From the NCBI RefSeq assembly GCF_025144145.1, contig NZ_CP083546.1, positions 1,876,501 through 1,940,500 of the forward strand: DNA of 64,000 nucleotides. The letters are read 5' to 3'. Positions 2,008 to 15,910 of this stretch are shown piece after piece. How positions within the stretch are numbered: position 1 is the stretch's first letter; every line of letters begins with the position of its first letter. The DNA is from Leisingera sp. M658. GTDB taxonomy: Bacteria; Pseudomonadota; Alphaproteobacteria; Rhodobacterales; Rhodobacteraceae. The notes beneath the pieces were generated by a model. It was not told the origin of the DNA. It did not search any database and saw nothing but the letters and a program-made list of their open reading frames with translations. Made by a program: the position numbers and the translations under genes.

Positions 2008-2484
2008 GTGATGCGGCGCCTGCTTCACTGGAGCTTGGGCGCCTGCATGACTTTTATCGCCGGCACCGCGCTGGCGTCTGACTGCCAGCTTGCACAGGCC
2101 GATCTTCGCGGCGACTGGGGGCAGGCGGGATTTACCGTTGAAATTGCCGCTACAGAGGCGGAGCGGGCCCAAGGGCTGATGTTCCGCGAAGACCTGCCGC
2201 GCGGGGCAGGGATGCTGTTTGTCTATGACAGCCCGCAGCCTGCGGCGTTCTGGATGAAGAATACTCTGATCCCGCTCGATATCATTTTTCTGAATGAACA
2301 CGGACTGGTGACCTCGGTTCACGAGAACGCCGTGCCTGGCGATCTGACCCCGATTCCGGGGGGGGACGCTGTCTTTGCAGTGCTGGAAATCAACGGCGGG
2401 CTTGCCCGCAAATACGGTATCGCGGCAGGCTCGCAGATGCGCCATGAAATTTTTTCCCTCAGCGGCGCAGTTTGGCCCTGTTAG
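2008..2484 (+). CDS. DUF192 family exported protein
   Basis: 158 residues with an N-terminal hydrophobic signal segment (about residues 4-24, ending TALAS), so probably periplasmic. The mature part has the DUF192 signature: ERAQGLMFRE, GMLFVYD, and FWMKNTLIPLDIIF, a stretch conserved across the family. Function is unknown. The gene starts as GTG-ATG, so the start could be 2008 or 2011. It follows the cold-shock gene by only 4 bases and is followed by tRNA-Pro. Family assignment is firm; role is not. Confidence 0.88.
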   Translation: MMRRLLHWSLGACMTFIAGTALASDCQLAQADLRGDWGQAGFTVEIAATEAERAQGLMFREDLPRGAGMLFVYDSPQPAAFWMKNTLIPLDIIFLNEHGLVTSVHENAVPGDLTPIPGGDAVFAVLEINGGLARKYGIAAGSQMRHEIFSLSGAVWPC

Positions 2485-2527
2485 GGGTTTCCAAATCAGT
2501 TTGGCAGAGATAGGAAGGCGCACGGTC

Positions 2528-2604
2528 CGGGGCGTGGCGCAGTCTGGTAGCGCACCTGTTTTGGGTACAGGGGGTCGTGAGTTCGAATCTCGCCGCCCCG
2601 ACCA
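2528..2604 (+). tRNA. tRNA-Pro(TGG)
   Basis: A 77-base cloverleaf with a seven-pair acceptor stem (CGGGGCG, 2528-2534, with CGCCCCG, 2594-2600), discriminator A and encoded CCA. The anticodon stem CCTGT/ACAGG encloses loop TTTGGGT, giving anticodon TGG (reads CCA and, with wobble, CCN). The T-arm GTTCGAATC is standard. Confidence 0.96.
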
Positions 2605-2624
2605 TACTTCTTCAATAAGTTGCA

Positions 2625-2663
2625 GCGAATCTTTGCCGGGTAAAACCCGGGGCAAAGATTCGC
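2625..2663 (+). terminator. Strong hairpin after tRNA-Pro
   Basis: A 13-bp perfect stem (2625-2637 with 2651-2663) is continued by GGG/CCC around a TAAAA loop with a 2-base bulge. It sits 21 bases past the tRNA CCA end. The following bases are T-poor (TTCCCGTATTT), so termination is likely but not certain. Confidence 0.6.
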
Positions 2664-3330
2664 TTCCCGTATTTGGTGAACTGAAACTGCGCAGTTCAAT
2701 CGGGGGTGCTATTGCTTTCTTAACGCACTGTTAAGACACCCTTAACCAATTGCCGCTGAGCCGCATCAAAAAGTTAATCGGAGGCTGGCTGTCCGAAGGC
2801 CCGTGGCAGGAAGCCACAAAAAATCGCTTCTAAGCTGTGCACCCTGTTTTCAGCCAGTGCAGCTGCATGGTTTTACACAGCCATCACCTCTGGCCGGTAC
2901 GGCCGCTGTCCTTCTGCAAGGCAGCAAGTCACTCACCCGTCAAAGGAAATCCGAACAGGCAGCAGCGCAGTCCGAAGACATTGAACGGGACAGGGCCTGT
3001 GGATGAATCAACGCCCCGCCGCAGACCCTGCAATCCGCGGAAACCGTCAACAGCAAAGATAGTTGCCAAAGTGTAAATTTGCCGTTGACCCTTAGTGTCC
3101 GAATACGCCAAATTGTGGACACCGGTTGCGACGGCACTAGATCTGGTGGGTGACAGAGCCGAAGCAACAACGCTGAAAACAACAGACAGCCCTGTGAGAA
3201 TGGCCGGCGAGGGCCGCAAGCGCGCTATATGCGGCGTGCGACGGGTGTTTGTGTTTTCCGTGACCGGATCTGACTGGCGCTTGGGGGCGCCGCGGCAAAT
3301 AGACGACGAATGCTTGAAAAGGGGCTGAGC
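2664..3330 (+). other. Long gap upstream of nrdJ
   Basis: About 670 bases with no convincing gene; short reading frames here lack ribosome-binding sites or recognisable content. It holds the TTAA array at 2720-2745 (listed separately). It also holds an inverted repeat GTGTCC (3095-3100) / GGACAC (3117-3122) with a 16-base spacer, just downstream of a TTGACC hexamer (3085-3090) that could be the -35 of the nrdJ promoter. I saw no NrdR-box pair and no cobalamin riboswitch. A small RNA driven by the TTAA array is possible. Confidence 0.45.
2720..2745. promoter_or_regulatory. Tandem CtrA-type sites (TTAA-N7-TTAA-N7-TTAA)
   Basis: Three TTAA half-sites start at 2720, 2731 and 2742, exactly 11 bases apart, giving two overlapping copies of the CtrA recognition pattern TTAA-N7-TTAA (the outer ones read TTAAC). 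The spacing and match are seen directly; CtrA binding is inferred. The organism has the CtrA phosphorelay, since chpT is in this window. The nearest annotated downstream gene, nrdJ, starts about 585 bases away. Confidence 0.55.
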
Positions 3331-6300
3331 ATGAAGATCGAACGGAAGTTCACCAAACCCGGACAGGATGCCTATGCTGATCTGGCCTTTCTCTCGGCCA
3401 CATCGGAGATCCGCAATCCGGACGGGACCATTGTTTTCCGGCTCGACAACATCGAAATTCCCGCATCCTGGAGCCAGGTCGCCAGCGACGTCATCGCCCA
3501 GAAGTATTTCCGCAAGGCCGGCGTGCCGTCGCGGCTGAAGAAAGTCCGCGAAAAAGGCGTTCCTGAGTTCCTGTGGCGCTCGGTCCCTGCGGACGGCGCA
3601 GTGCTGGGCGGGGAAACCTCCTCCAAGCAAGTGTTCGACCGTCTGGCCGGCGCCTGGGCCTATTGGGGCTGGAAGGGCGGCTACTTCTCCTCCGAGGAGG
3701 ACGCCCGCGCCTTTTACGACGAGATGCGCTATATGCTGGCAACCCAGCGTTCCGCCCCCAATTCCCCCCAATGGTTCAACACCGGCCTGCATTGGGCCTA
3801 TGGCATCGACGGCCCGGCCCAGGGCCATCACTACGTCGATTACAAGACCGGCAAGCTGACCAAGTCCGACAGCGCCTATGAGCATCCCCAGCCGCACGCC
3901 TGTTTCATCCAGTCGGTCTCGGATGATCTGGTCAAGGACGGTGGCATCATGGATCTGTGGGTGCGCGAGGCGCGCCTGTTCAAATACGGTTCCGGCACCG
4001 GCACCAATTTCAGCCATCTGCGTGCCGAAGGCGAGCCGCTGTCCGGCGGCGGCAAGTCTTCGGGCCTGATGGGGTTCCTAAAAATCGGCGACCGCGCGGC
4101 GGGCGCCATCAAATCAGGCGGCACAACCCGTCGAGCAGCAAAAATGGTGATCGTGGACGCGGATCACCCGGACATCGAGCAGTTCATCGAATGGAAGGTG
4201 CTGGAGGAGCAAAAGGTTGCCTCCATCGTCGCCGGGTCCAAGATGCACGAAAAGATGCTGAACGGCATTTTCGAGGCGATCCGCAGCTGGGACGGCGGTG
4301 AAGCGGATGCTTATGACCCGGCAGTCAACACCGGGCTGAAGGTCGCGATCCGCGAGGCCAAAAAGGTGGCGATCCCGGAAACCTACGTCAAGCGGGTGCT
4401 GGATTACGCCAAGCAGGGCCATACCTCGATCGAGTTCCCGACTTATGACACCGACTGGGACTCCGAGGCCTACAGCTCTGTCTCCGGGCAGAACTCCAAC
4501 AACTCGATCCGGGTGACAAACGCCTTCCTGCACGCGGTTGAAAAAGACGCCGACTGGCAGCTGATCAACCGCACCGACGGCAAGGTCGCCAAAGTGGTGA
4601 AGGCCCGCGAGTTGTGGGAGAAGGTCGGCCATGCGGCCTGGGCCTGCGCCGATCCGGGCATCCAGTTTCACGACACCGTGAATGAGTGGCACACCTGCCC
4701 GGAAGACGGTGAGATTCGCGGCTCAAACCCTTGTTCGGAATACATGTTCCTGGACGACACCGCCTGCAACCTGGCGTCACTGAACCTGCTGACCTTCCTG
4801 AAGGACGGGCTGTTCCAGGCGGATGACTTCATGCATTCCTGCCGCCTGTGGACGCTGACACTGGAAATCTCGGTGATGATGGCGCAGTTCCCGTCCAAGG
4901 AAATCGCGCAGCGCTCCTATGATTTCCGCACGCTGGGTCTGGGCTATGCCAATATCGGCGGCCTTTTGATGAACATGGGCTACAGCTATGACTCGGATGA
5001 GGGCAGGGCGCTTTGCGGTGCGTTGACCGCGCTGATGACCGGCGTGTCCTACGCCACCTCGGCCGAGATCGCCGCGGAATTGGGGCCGTTCCCGGGGTAT
5101 GCAAAAAACACAGACCACATGCTGCGTGTGATCCGCAATCACCGCAACGCTGCAATGGGCAACGCGGACGGCTACGAGGCACTGTCGGTCACCCCGGTGC
5201 CGCTGGATATTTCCAACTGCCCGGACGCGCTGCTGGCTGATCTGGCCGCCAGCGCCTGGGACGAGGCGCTGGAGCTGGGCGAAAAGCACGGTTACCGCAA
5301 CGCCCAGACCACAGTCATTGCACCCACCGGCACGATCGGCCTGGTGATGGATTGCGATACGACGGGCATCGAGCCTGACTTCGCCCTGGTGAAGTTCAAG
5401 AAGCTGGCCGGCGGCGGCTACTTCAAAATCATCAACCGTTCGGTTCCTTCTGCACTGGAGGGTTTGGGCTACAGCTCTGCCCAGATTGAAGAAATCGCAT
5501 CCTACGCAGTTGGCCATGGCTCTATCGGTAACGCGCCGGGCATCAACCACACCTCGCTGGCTGGCCACGGCTTTGGCCCCAATGAGCTGGCCAAGGTGGA
5601 CGCGGCACTGGAATCGGCCTTTGACATCCGGTTTGTGTTCAACCAGTGGACCTTGGGCGAAGATTTCTGCACCGGTGTGCTGGGCATCCCTGCGCCCAAG
5701 CTGAATGATCCGACCTTTGACCTGCTGCGCCACCTGGGCTTTACCAAGGCGGACATTGACGCGGCCAACGACCACGTCTGCGGCACCATGACCCTGGAAG
5801 GCGCGCCGCATCTGCAGCAAGAACACTATGCGATCTTTGACTGCGCCAACCCCTGCGGTAAAAAAGGCAAGCGTTTCCTGAACGTTGACAGCCACATCTA
5901 CATGATGGCAGCCGCCCAAAGCTTTATCTCCGGCGCAATTTCCAAAACCATCAATATGCCGAATTCGGCCACCATCGAGGACTGCCAGAAGGCCTATGAG
6001 CTGAGCTGGAGCCTGGGGGTTAAGGCCAATGCGCTTTACCGTGACGGCTCCAAGCTGAGCCAGCCGCTGGCGGCGGCACTGGTTGAGGATGACGACGACG
6101 CGGCAGAAGTTCTGGAGAGCGGCGCGCCGCAGGAGAAGGCAGCGGTTCTTGCCGAAAAAATCGTCGAGAAAGTGATCATCAAGGAGGTGCTGAAATCGCA
6201 CCGCACCAAGATGCCGCAGCGGCGCAAGGGATATACCCAAAAGGCAGTTGTCGGCGGTCACAAGGTTTATCTGCGGACCGGCGAATACGAGGACGGCAAC

Positions 6301-6975
6301 CTGGGCGAGATCTTCATCGACATGCACAAGGAAGGCGCAGGCTTCCGGGCGATGATGAACAATTTCGCCATCGCGGTGTCGGTCGGCCTGCAATACGGCG
6401 TGCCGCTGGAGGAGTTTGTCGACGCCTTCACCTTCACCAAGTTTGAGCCCGCCGGCATGGTCCAGGGCAATGACTCGATCAAGAACGCCACCTCGATCCT
6501 TGATTACGTGTTCCGCGAACTGGCCGTCAGCTATCTGGACCGTACCGATCTGGCGCATGTGAAGCCCGAGGGCGCAAGCTTTGACGACCTGGGCCGCGGC
6601 GAAGAAGAAGGCGTGTCGAACCTGAGCGAGCTGAGTGAAAACGCAGCCTCGCGGTCGCTGGAGGTGCTAAAGCAGATCTCTTCGACCGGCTATTTGCGCA
6701 AACGGCTGCCGCAGGAACTGGTGGTCCTGCAAGGCGGCCAGACCGAAGTATCGGCACTGGGAACTGGAACTGATCCGGTTGCCGCGTTGCAATCGCTGGT
6801 GCCAGAGACCGGTGATGCGCCTGTGCAGCCCGGCGGCGGAATGGATGCGCGCGTCAAGGCAAAAATGCAGGGCTACGAGGGCGAGGCCTGCGGCGAATGC
6901 GGCAACTACACGCTGGTCCGCAACGGCACCTGTATGAAGTGCAACACCTGCGGCGGAACCTCCGGCTGCAGCTGA
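3331..6975 (+). CDS. nrdJ: Class II (adenosylcobalamin-dependent) ribonucleotide reductase
   Basis: Converts ribonucleotides to deoxyribonucleotides using adenosylcobalamin as radical source, so needs no oxygen. The 1214-residue length matches the long alphaproteobacterial NrdJ. Visible are [19 protein letters not shown] near residue 145, HACFIQS with the first active-site Cys, [11 protein letters not shown] with the radical Cys and Glu, and [13 protein letters not shown]. The C-terminus has a TSCPD-like segment followed by [18 protein letters not shown], then CGGTSGCS, a Zn-ribbon and redox Cys tail. I chose ATG 3331 ([11 protein letters not shown]) because AAGGGG lies 7 bases upstream; an in-frame ATG at 3310 has no ribosome-binding site. 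No nrdAB is in the window. Confidence 0.96.
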
Positions 6976-7178: not shown

Positions 7179-7283
7179 GACTGCGGGCGGGCTGTTTACT
7201 GTATCGGTAGACCTCATAATGAGAATTATGTTAAATTGACACTCATCAACAGACCACCGTAGCGTAGATTAAACATATAATTC

Positions 7284-15313: not shown

Positions 15314-15910
15314 ATGGGTGTAGATAACGCCAATCTGGCTGCATTGGTAGGGTCCCGGATCTGCCATGATCTGATCAGCCCTGTCGGTGCCATAAACAAC
15401 GGTCTGGAACTGCTTGGAATGGCTGGCAGCATGTCCGGCCCCGAGCTGGAGCTGATCTCAGACAGCGTTGCAAATGCCAATGCCCGTATCCGTTTTTTCC
15501 GTATCGCCTTTGGCGCTGCCGGCGACCAGCAGATGGGCCGGGCCGAGTTGATTTCGGTGTTGGAGGACATCAGCAAGGGCGGTCGGATCAATTACCAATG
15601 GTCGCCGCTGGAGGGCTGCACCCGCAGCGAGGCGCGCCTGTCCCTGTTGGCGGCACTGTGCCTGGAATCCGCCCTGCCCTATGGCGGCACAGTTAAGATT
15701 TTCTGCGCCGGCGGCAAATGGACGGTAATGGGCGAAGGCCGCAAGCTGAACGTGGATGACGAGCTGTGGGCGCGGGTCAGCGGCGGCAATTCAAATGCCG
15801 AGATCACGCCGGCGCTGGTGCAATTTGCGTTGCTCCCCGAGGCCGCCAAGGAAGCAGACCGCACCGTCCGGCTGGAGCAGAGCCTGGAAAAGATCACGCT
15901 GCAGTTCTGA
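15314..15910 (+). CDS. chpT: Histidine phosphotransferase ChpT
   Basis: Relays phosphate from the hybrid kinase CckA to the response regulator CtrA, and to CpdR in Caulobacter. In Rhodobacteraceae this controls motility, gene transfer agent production and other CtrA targets. 198 residues: a dimerising helical hairpin with phosphoryl His18 in RICHDLISPVGAINNGLELL, then a degenerate ATPase-like domain (about 80-195) without functional ATP motifs, as in ChpT. AAGTATAAGTT just before the ATG gives only a weak ribosome-binding site; the upstream GGAGGAAG is 10 bases away and is probably used. Confidence 0.92.
   Translation: MGVDNANLAALVGSRICHDLISPVGAINNGLELLGMAGSMSGPELELISDSVANANARIRFFRIAFGAAGDQQMGRAELISVLEDISKGGRINYQWSPLEGCTRSEARLSLLAALCLESALPYGGTVKIFCAGGKWTVMGEGRKLNVDDELWARVSGGNSNAEITPALVQFALLPEAAKEADRTVRLEQSLEKITLQF

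Follow-up and report, generated by a model that had tools for sequence, protein, structure and literature searches.

A conserved array of CtrA-type TTAA half-sites upstream of the class II ribonucleotide reductase gene nrdJ in Leisingera

The stretch of Leisingera sp. M658 DNA analysed here, 64,000 nucleotides in length and referred to as the window, contains between a tRNA-Pro gene and nrdJ an array of regularly spaced TTAA half-sites, which we are inclined to interpret as a putative multi-half-site CtrA operator within a long nrdJ upstream regulatory region. CtrA belongs to the OmpR family of response regulators and recognizes TTAA direct repeats that are spaced by one turn of the helix. The array, TTAACGCACTGTTAAGACACCCTTAA at 2720-2745, has the form TTAA-N7-TTAA-N7-TTAA (11 bp start to start), its half-sites being separated by seven bases, one of the two spacings (seven or six) expected of a CtrA site, and is the single match in 64 kb. 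It is separated by 585 bases from the ATG of nrdJ at 3331; the NCBIfam NrdJ model begins at this ATG, which is residue 8 in the longer ORF. The initial annotation had reported three TTAA half-sites 11 bases apart, 585 bases upstream of nrdJ, and these were re-found at 2720-2745; three are indeed intact in the window, but the usual form in the genus has four, the first of which is decayed here. The features of the region are as follows.

2528 to 2604, plus strand: tRNA-Pro(tgg), from the tRNA search; upstream boundary of the gap
2709 to 2712, no strand assigned: decayed unit 1 of the array, CTAT here and TTAA in 17 of 21 genus genomes
2720 to 2745, no strand assigned: three intact TTAA half-sites, units 2-4 of the four-unit array, from pattern match and genus alignment
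2746 to 2777, plus strand: conserved block adjoining the array on its 3' side, with the pattern TTAACC-N2-3-TG-N-YGC ... GCRTCA ... TTAA, the last at 2774-2777
2998 to 3006, plus strand: DnaA-box-like TGTGGATGA, overlapping the GANTC site GAATC (3005-3009)
3085 to 3090, plus strand: TTGACC, recognized by conservation; possible -35 of the nrdJ promoter
3103 to 3118 and 3134 to 3149, no strand assigned: two weak NrdR-box-like sites 15 bp apart, matching the box consensus at 10/16 and 11/16 positions
3331 to 6975, plus strand: nrdJ, B12-dependent (class II) ribonucleotide reductase (NCBIfam NF005736, 2203.5 bits)

The expected count of the triple in 100 dinucleotide shuffles of the window is 0.00. 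The triple is less exceptional at whole-genome scale than these shuffles imply: the complete genome of the strain (G000, 4.89 Mb, 7 contigs) contains two triples versus one for a reversed control pattern, and its 38 TTAA-N7-TTAA pairs versus 44 reversed-control pairs display no genome-wide enrichment of pairs as such. The latter count speaks for an array that arose by chance, or that is neutral sequence shared through recent common ancestry, and such an origin was weighed against the tRNA-Pro to nrdJ gap of 21 Leisingera genomes, the genome of strain M658 included. Within this gap the array is found at one position, about -620 from nrdJ, as a chain of TTAA at 11-bp steps comprising four units in 15 of the 21 genomes, three units in three (the window, L047 and L063), two units in two (L049 and L066) and none in one (L050, genome G155). 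A perfect triple or quadruple is present at the array position in 18 of the 21 genomes, which excludes chance; elsewhere in the same genomes four triples were found, and eight with the reversed control. TTAA is retained at units 1, 2, 3 and 4 (the latter at 2742-2745) in 17, 19, 19 and 21 of the 21 genomes, respectively. The mean pairwise identity is 0.92 for the TTAA columns versus 0.55 for the spacer columns, which indicates that the half-sites are under selection, and the three spacers are represented by 14, 18 and 11 different sequences. Half-sites and spacing are thus conserved beyond neutral drift: the spacers drifted while the TTAA units stayed, and much of the adjoining gap is down to an identity of 0.33-0.39, all of which makes a chance or neutral origin very improbable. 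The view of the initial annotation that chance is much less likely to produce a triple than a single site therefore stands with respect to the shuffles and to conservation at the same place, and is weakened by the genome-wide count of two triples versus one. The loss of units 1-3 in G155 shows that the full array is dispensable in that genome.

Outside the genus, 180 nrdJ upstream gaps of other Rhodobacteraceae were compared. The named nrdJ loci were the best 80 of at least 598 stretches, of which L139, a Leisingera, was removed to leave 79. A whole-genome nrdJ search, which gave a match in 293 of 296 genomes, contributed 108 loci: 28 of the 30 returned (two Leisingera were left out) and 80 of 120 further places listed, from which eight high-ranking places, some on short contigs, were passed over and the last 32 were left out; one stretch among the 108 (L278) is ended by a contig end. 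A tRNA was found in 131 of the resulting 187 loci, and the other 56 are represented by their last 700 bp, which may include coding DNA. Seven of the 187 were removed as redundant, giving 180 gaps (79 named and 101 new).

TTAA pairs with an N7 spacing occur in nine of the first 79 named loci and pairs with an N6 spacing in six. For all 180 gaps these numbers are 16 (N7) and 14 (N6), compared to an average of 2.03 for the 29 other spacings, the highest of which is N17 with eight; the corresponding Poisson probabilities are 6e-10 (N7) and 4e-8 (N6), with loci taken as independent. The excess was replicated, as it reappears in the 101 gaps added after the first sighting (eight for N6, seven for N7, at most three for any other spacing). 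The control motif AATT is also unevenly distributed in the 180 gaps (mean 3.2; nine for N17, eight for N16, seven for both N5 and N7), and N7, with six, is its top spacing in the 101 new gaps. Control DNA came only from the regions flanking the 79 named nrdJ loci and comprises 408 intergenic-like pieces totalling 100,645 bases; it contains two N6 and two N7 pairs, a density of 0.02 per kb each versus 0.11 (N6) and 0.13 (N7) per kb in the gaps. Passages of PMC6180460 and PMC11264516 describe N6 as well as N7 as a CtrA spacing. CtrA-type sites upstream of nrdJ orthologues are therefore in excess of control DNA, but an N6 or N7 pair is present in only 25 of the 180 gaps. The connection to nrdJ proposed in the initial annotation gains from this enrichment in other genera and is restricted by its patchiness; the conservation of the spacing in relatives, which the same annotation had put forward as a check, is found both within the genus (three or more units in 18 of 21 genomes) and as the N6/N7 excess beyond it.

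A profile search of the named nrdJ loci with the array region returned only L139, itself a Leisingera, and a weak reverse-strand match in L123 (E 0.35). The pattern TTAAC-N1-4-TG-N-YGC occurs between -591 and -619 in three of the 180 gaps outside the genus, in one of them on the reverse strand. Upstream of each of the three matches lies another TTAA in the same phase, and a two-unit form of the array may therefore predate the genus. In the GCRTCA part of the block, G, C, T, C and A are invariant in all 21 genus genomes, and the block at 2746-2777 is a possible promoter core or site for a second factor.

With respect to the regulator, the genome encodes both CtrA, which shares 74% identity with its Caulobacter counterpart, and its phosphotransferase: ChpT, which the initial annotation had placed in the same window, was recovered as a PF10090 match at approximately 15542-15883 (E 9.9e-26). 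Single TTAA-N7-TTAA sites in the genome are located near a MotB-plug gene and a PAS_5 gene, near a PAS-HisKA gene that is cut by the stretch end and matches two CckA models best among the NCBIfam families (E 4e-42 and 2e-39, under their full-length cut-offs), and near a PAS-protein gene that is DivL-like by eye only. CtrA is the best candidate regulator among the OmpR-type proteins, others being possible, since eight other near-full-length OmpR-type matches are encoded in the genome. Direct repeats with a period of approximately 11 bp are a general feature of OmpR-family operators, for example those of PhoB and PmrA, and the array could be the operator of a different family member that reads TTAA direct repeats 11 bp apart. 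Such an assignment would fit the observation that three of the six quadruple arrays in 394 family genomes precede an MshEN-type gene (two of these genes being glycosyltransferases by Pfam), a gene that to our knowledge is not established as a CtrA target. We consider it rather unlikely, since the described CtrA spacings are N6 and N7 and single pairs accompany the MotB-plug, PAS_5 and CckA-like kinase genes.

The gap is 720-726 bp long (tRNA end to nrdJ ATG) in all 21 genus genomes, though much of its middle displays an identity of only 0.33-0.39. This near-constant length prompted a search for a coding gene, which was rejected as no frame is open across species. A perfect 14-bp inverted repeat with 13 nt between its arms and without a T run follows the tRNA-Pro gene at 2624-2664; several relatives in the genus retain the outer stem of this repeat, with GAATC/GATTC. 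The array is distant from the nrdJ promoter, the conserved TTGACC following only after approximately 340 bp, and a CtrA operator at this place might drive a short transcript of its own in the 600-bp gap (a small RNA or leader) instead of nrdJ. Unit 4 and the invariant GC-TCA block (2746-2773) could form the promoter of such a transcript, and patches of intermediate conservation are present at 2807-2836 and 2912-2956. We nevertheless judge a separate transcript improbable: the RNAalifold consensus energy is -0.89 kcal/mol with no compensatory pair, no terminator is predicted in the window and candidates of any kind exist in four of 21 species at differing places, the gap contains no Rfam family and no open frame common to the species, and the identity of mid-gap is largely 0.33-0.39. 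The unannotated small RNA suggested in the initial annotation thus has neither conserved structure, terminator, Rfam match nor shared ORF in its favour. The promoter scan found no sigma-70-like promoter in 2400-3400; by eye the -10 downstream of unit 4 is weak, and the block after unit 4 is conserved.

The small subunit of class I ribonucleotide reductase (PF00268) was not found in the genome of strain M658 (0/1), and seven of 14 control genomes were positive. The promoter-proximal part of the gap is conserved in other genera as well, a profile of 2990-3165 matching 47 of the 79 named loci outside the genus (E < 0.01). Downstream of the TTGACC, both NrdR-box-like sites are conserved in the genus and are 15 bp apart; the boxes to which NrdR binds in PMC12051234 are separated by 14-17 bp. 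These sites are a weak lead, because they match the consensus at only 10/16 and 11/16 positions and three further 10/16 matches occur in 2601-3330.

DnaA boxes are enriched upstream of nrdJ in other Rhodobacteraceae. The perfect box TTATCCACA is present in 45 of the 180 gaps (47 sites) and absent from the 100,645 bases of control DNA, and the pattern T[TC]ATCCACA, counted on both strands, is found in 62 of the 180 gaps with one site in control DNA. Plus-strand DnaA sites are concentrated at -462 to -319 from nrdJ (44 of 48). The copy in the window at 2998-3006 differs by one base from TGTGGATAA. In part of the loci the box form TGTGGATGAATC overlaps a GANTC site, and 24 of the 180 gaps contain GGATGAATC. 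As upstream boxes exceed control DNA, the nrdJ regulatory region probably also answers to DnaA, a regulator that in parts of PMC8203912 and PMC3193534 is described as acting on nrdAB in E. coli and on nrdB in Caulobacter.

An N6 or N7 pair and a DnaA box occur together in 11 gaps versus 8.6 expected if independent, indicating that CtrA-type pairs and DnaA boxes are enriched separately and not jointly. Their joint occurrence in 11 of 180 gaps could be taken as the mark of a replication origin or origin-like element in the gap, comparable to the Caulobacter origin with its CtrA and DnaA boxes, were it not so close to this expectation. An origin was rejected and is extremely doubtful: contig 1 begins with dnaA, a dif-like site is located nearby, and GC skew places the 1.88 Mb locus near the terminus. 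In 20 samples of 20 kb the skew is positive up to 1.74 Mb, with the exception of a slightly negative value at 1.505 Mb, and negative from 1.985 Mb. The replication terminus appears to fall within the window. The dif-like site, AGACCTCATAATGAGAATTATGTTAAAT at 7209-7236, lies just 3' of nrdJ near the turn of the skew. A terminus or dif role of the array was also rejected, as the array does not follow dif across the genus genomes: the dif-like core is near nrdJ in the window genome, G162 and G151 (at distances to the array of 4.5, 4.5 and 5.6 kb, respectively), is on a different contig from nrdJ in six other genomes, and has no exact-pattern match in 12 of the 21. A fuller dif pattern was found in none of the 80 named nrdJ loci, the best 80 of at least 598 stretches.

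If the array is a CtrA operator, phosphorylated CtrA would bind it as tandem dimers on one face of the helix, and adjacent dimers would cooperate to give a steep response. CtrA bound at the array would raise or lower transcription of nrdJ, its presumed target. Either sign of the effect is conceivable, since the several CtrA sites of the Caulobacter pilA promoter both induce and repress (parts of PMC11264516). Two routes can be envisaged: the array may belong to a distal promoter, with unit 4 (TTAACC) as its -35, giving a long leader, or CtrA may act on the conserved promoter region approximately 340 bp downstream. Together with DnaA, and perhaps NrdR, CtrA would then tie dNTP supply to replication and to the state of the cell cycle. 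We tentatively propose, well short of an even expectation and from comparative sequence evidence, that the four-half-site array may work as a cooperative CtrA switch on nrdJ, through which the CckA-ChpT-CtrA pathway and DnaA, with NrdR, could gate the supply of DNA precursors, and that the CtrA and DnaA inputs may be old and patchily kept in the Rhodobacteraceae.

The type of site is already known; the four-unit form and the likely nrdJ target are new. The array resembles the CtrA full site TTAA-N7-TTAA of Caulobacter and the roseobacters in its half-site, its 11-bp step and the presence in the genome of CtrA, ChpT and a CckA-like kinase, but differs from it in that four half-sites follow one another without a break at 11-bp steps, each inner half-site being common to two adjacent full sites. 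A single full site at -35 is the rule among CtrA-activated promoters, according to parts of PMC11264516. The same source describes, in the Caulobacter pilA promoter, four CtrA sites, a comparable case of several sites upstream of one gene, in which the upstream sites tune output; the pilA sites stand apart from one another, with 31, 3 and 78 bases between them, and most deviate from the consensus, whereas the Leisingera units are contiguous, near-perfect and about 600 bp from the gene. Control of nrdAB and nrdB by DnaA (parts of PMC8203912 and PMC3193534) offers a parallel for a replication initiator acting on ribonucleotide reductase genes, and repression by NrdR (parts of PMC12186491 and PMC12051234) a parallel for a dedicated repressor; the candidate system differs from both in its class II nrdJ, its added CtrA-type sites and its weak NrdR boxes. 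The portion of the open-licence PMC literature covered yielded no description of a coupling between dNTP synthesis and the cell cycle in roseobacters: the main text of a D. shibae CtrA paper (PMC4046655) mentions neither nrd nor ribonucleotide, and PMC6538847, in which nrdJ and CtrA both occur, as they do in a brucellosis review, names NrdJ once, in a pathway list. A conserved operator would put this question within reach of a single array mutant, and contiguous half-sites common to overlapping full sites would constitute a natural test of cooperative CtrA binding.

Related repeats were also observed at other loci. Quadruple arrays are located near 1501-1537 in L176, L179 and L181 and at 1389-1414 in L182. 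Three quadruple arrays are positioned approximately 45-50 bp before an MshEN ORF, that of L176 being a sub-threshold MshEN match and those of L179 and L181 having a glycosyltransferase-2 domain, and the MshEN-type copy in the genome of strain M658 is preceded by a degenerate TTAA-N7-TTTA-N7-TTAA. A second class of 11-bp TTAA repeats, with a unit like TTTAAACACCC and including a triple, recurs in the genome of strain M658, at L156 (1461-1486, corresponding to G000:C1:2125460-2125485), L006, L008, L013 and L187.
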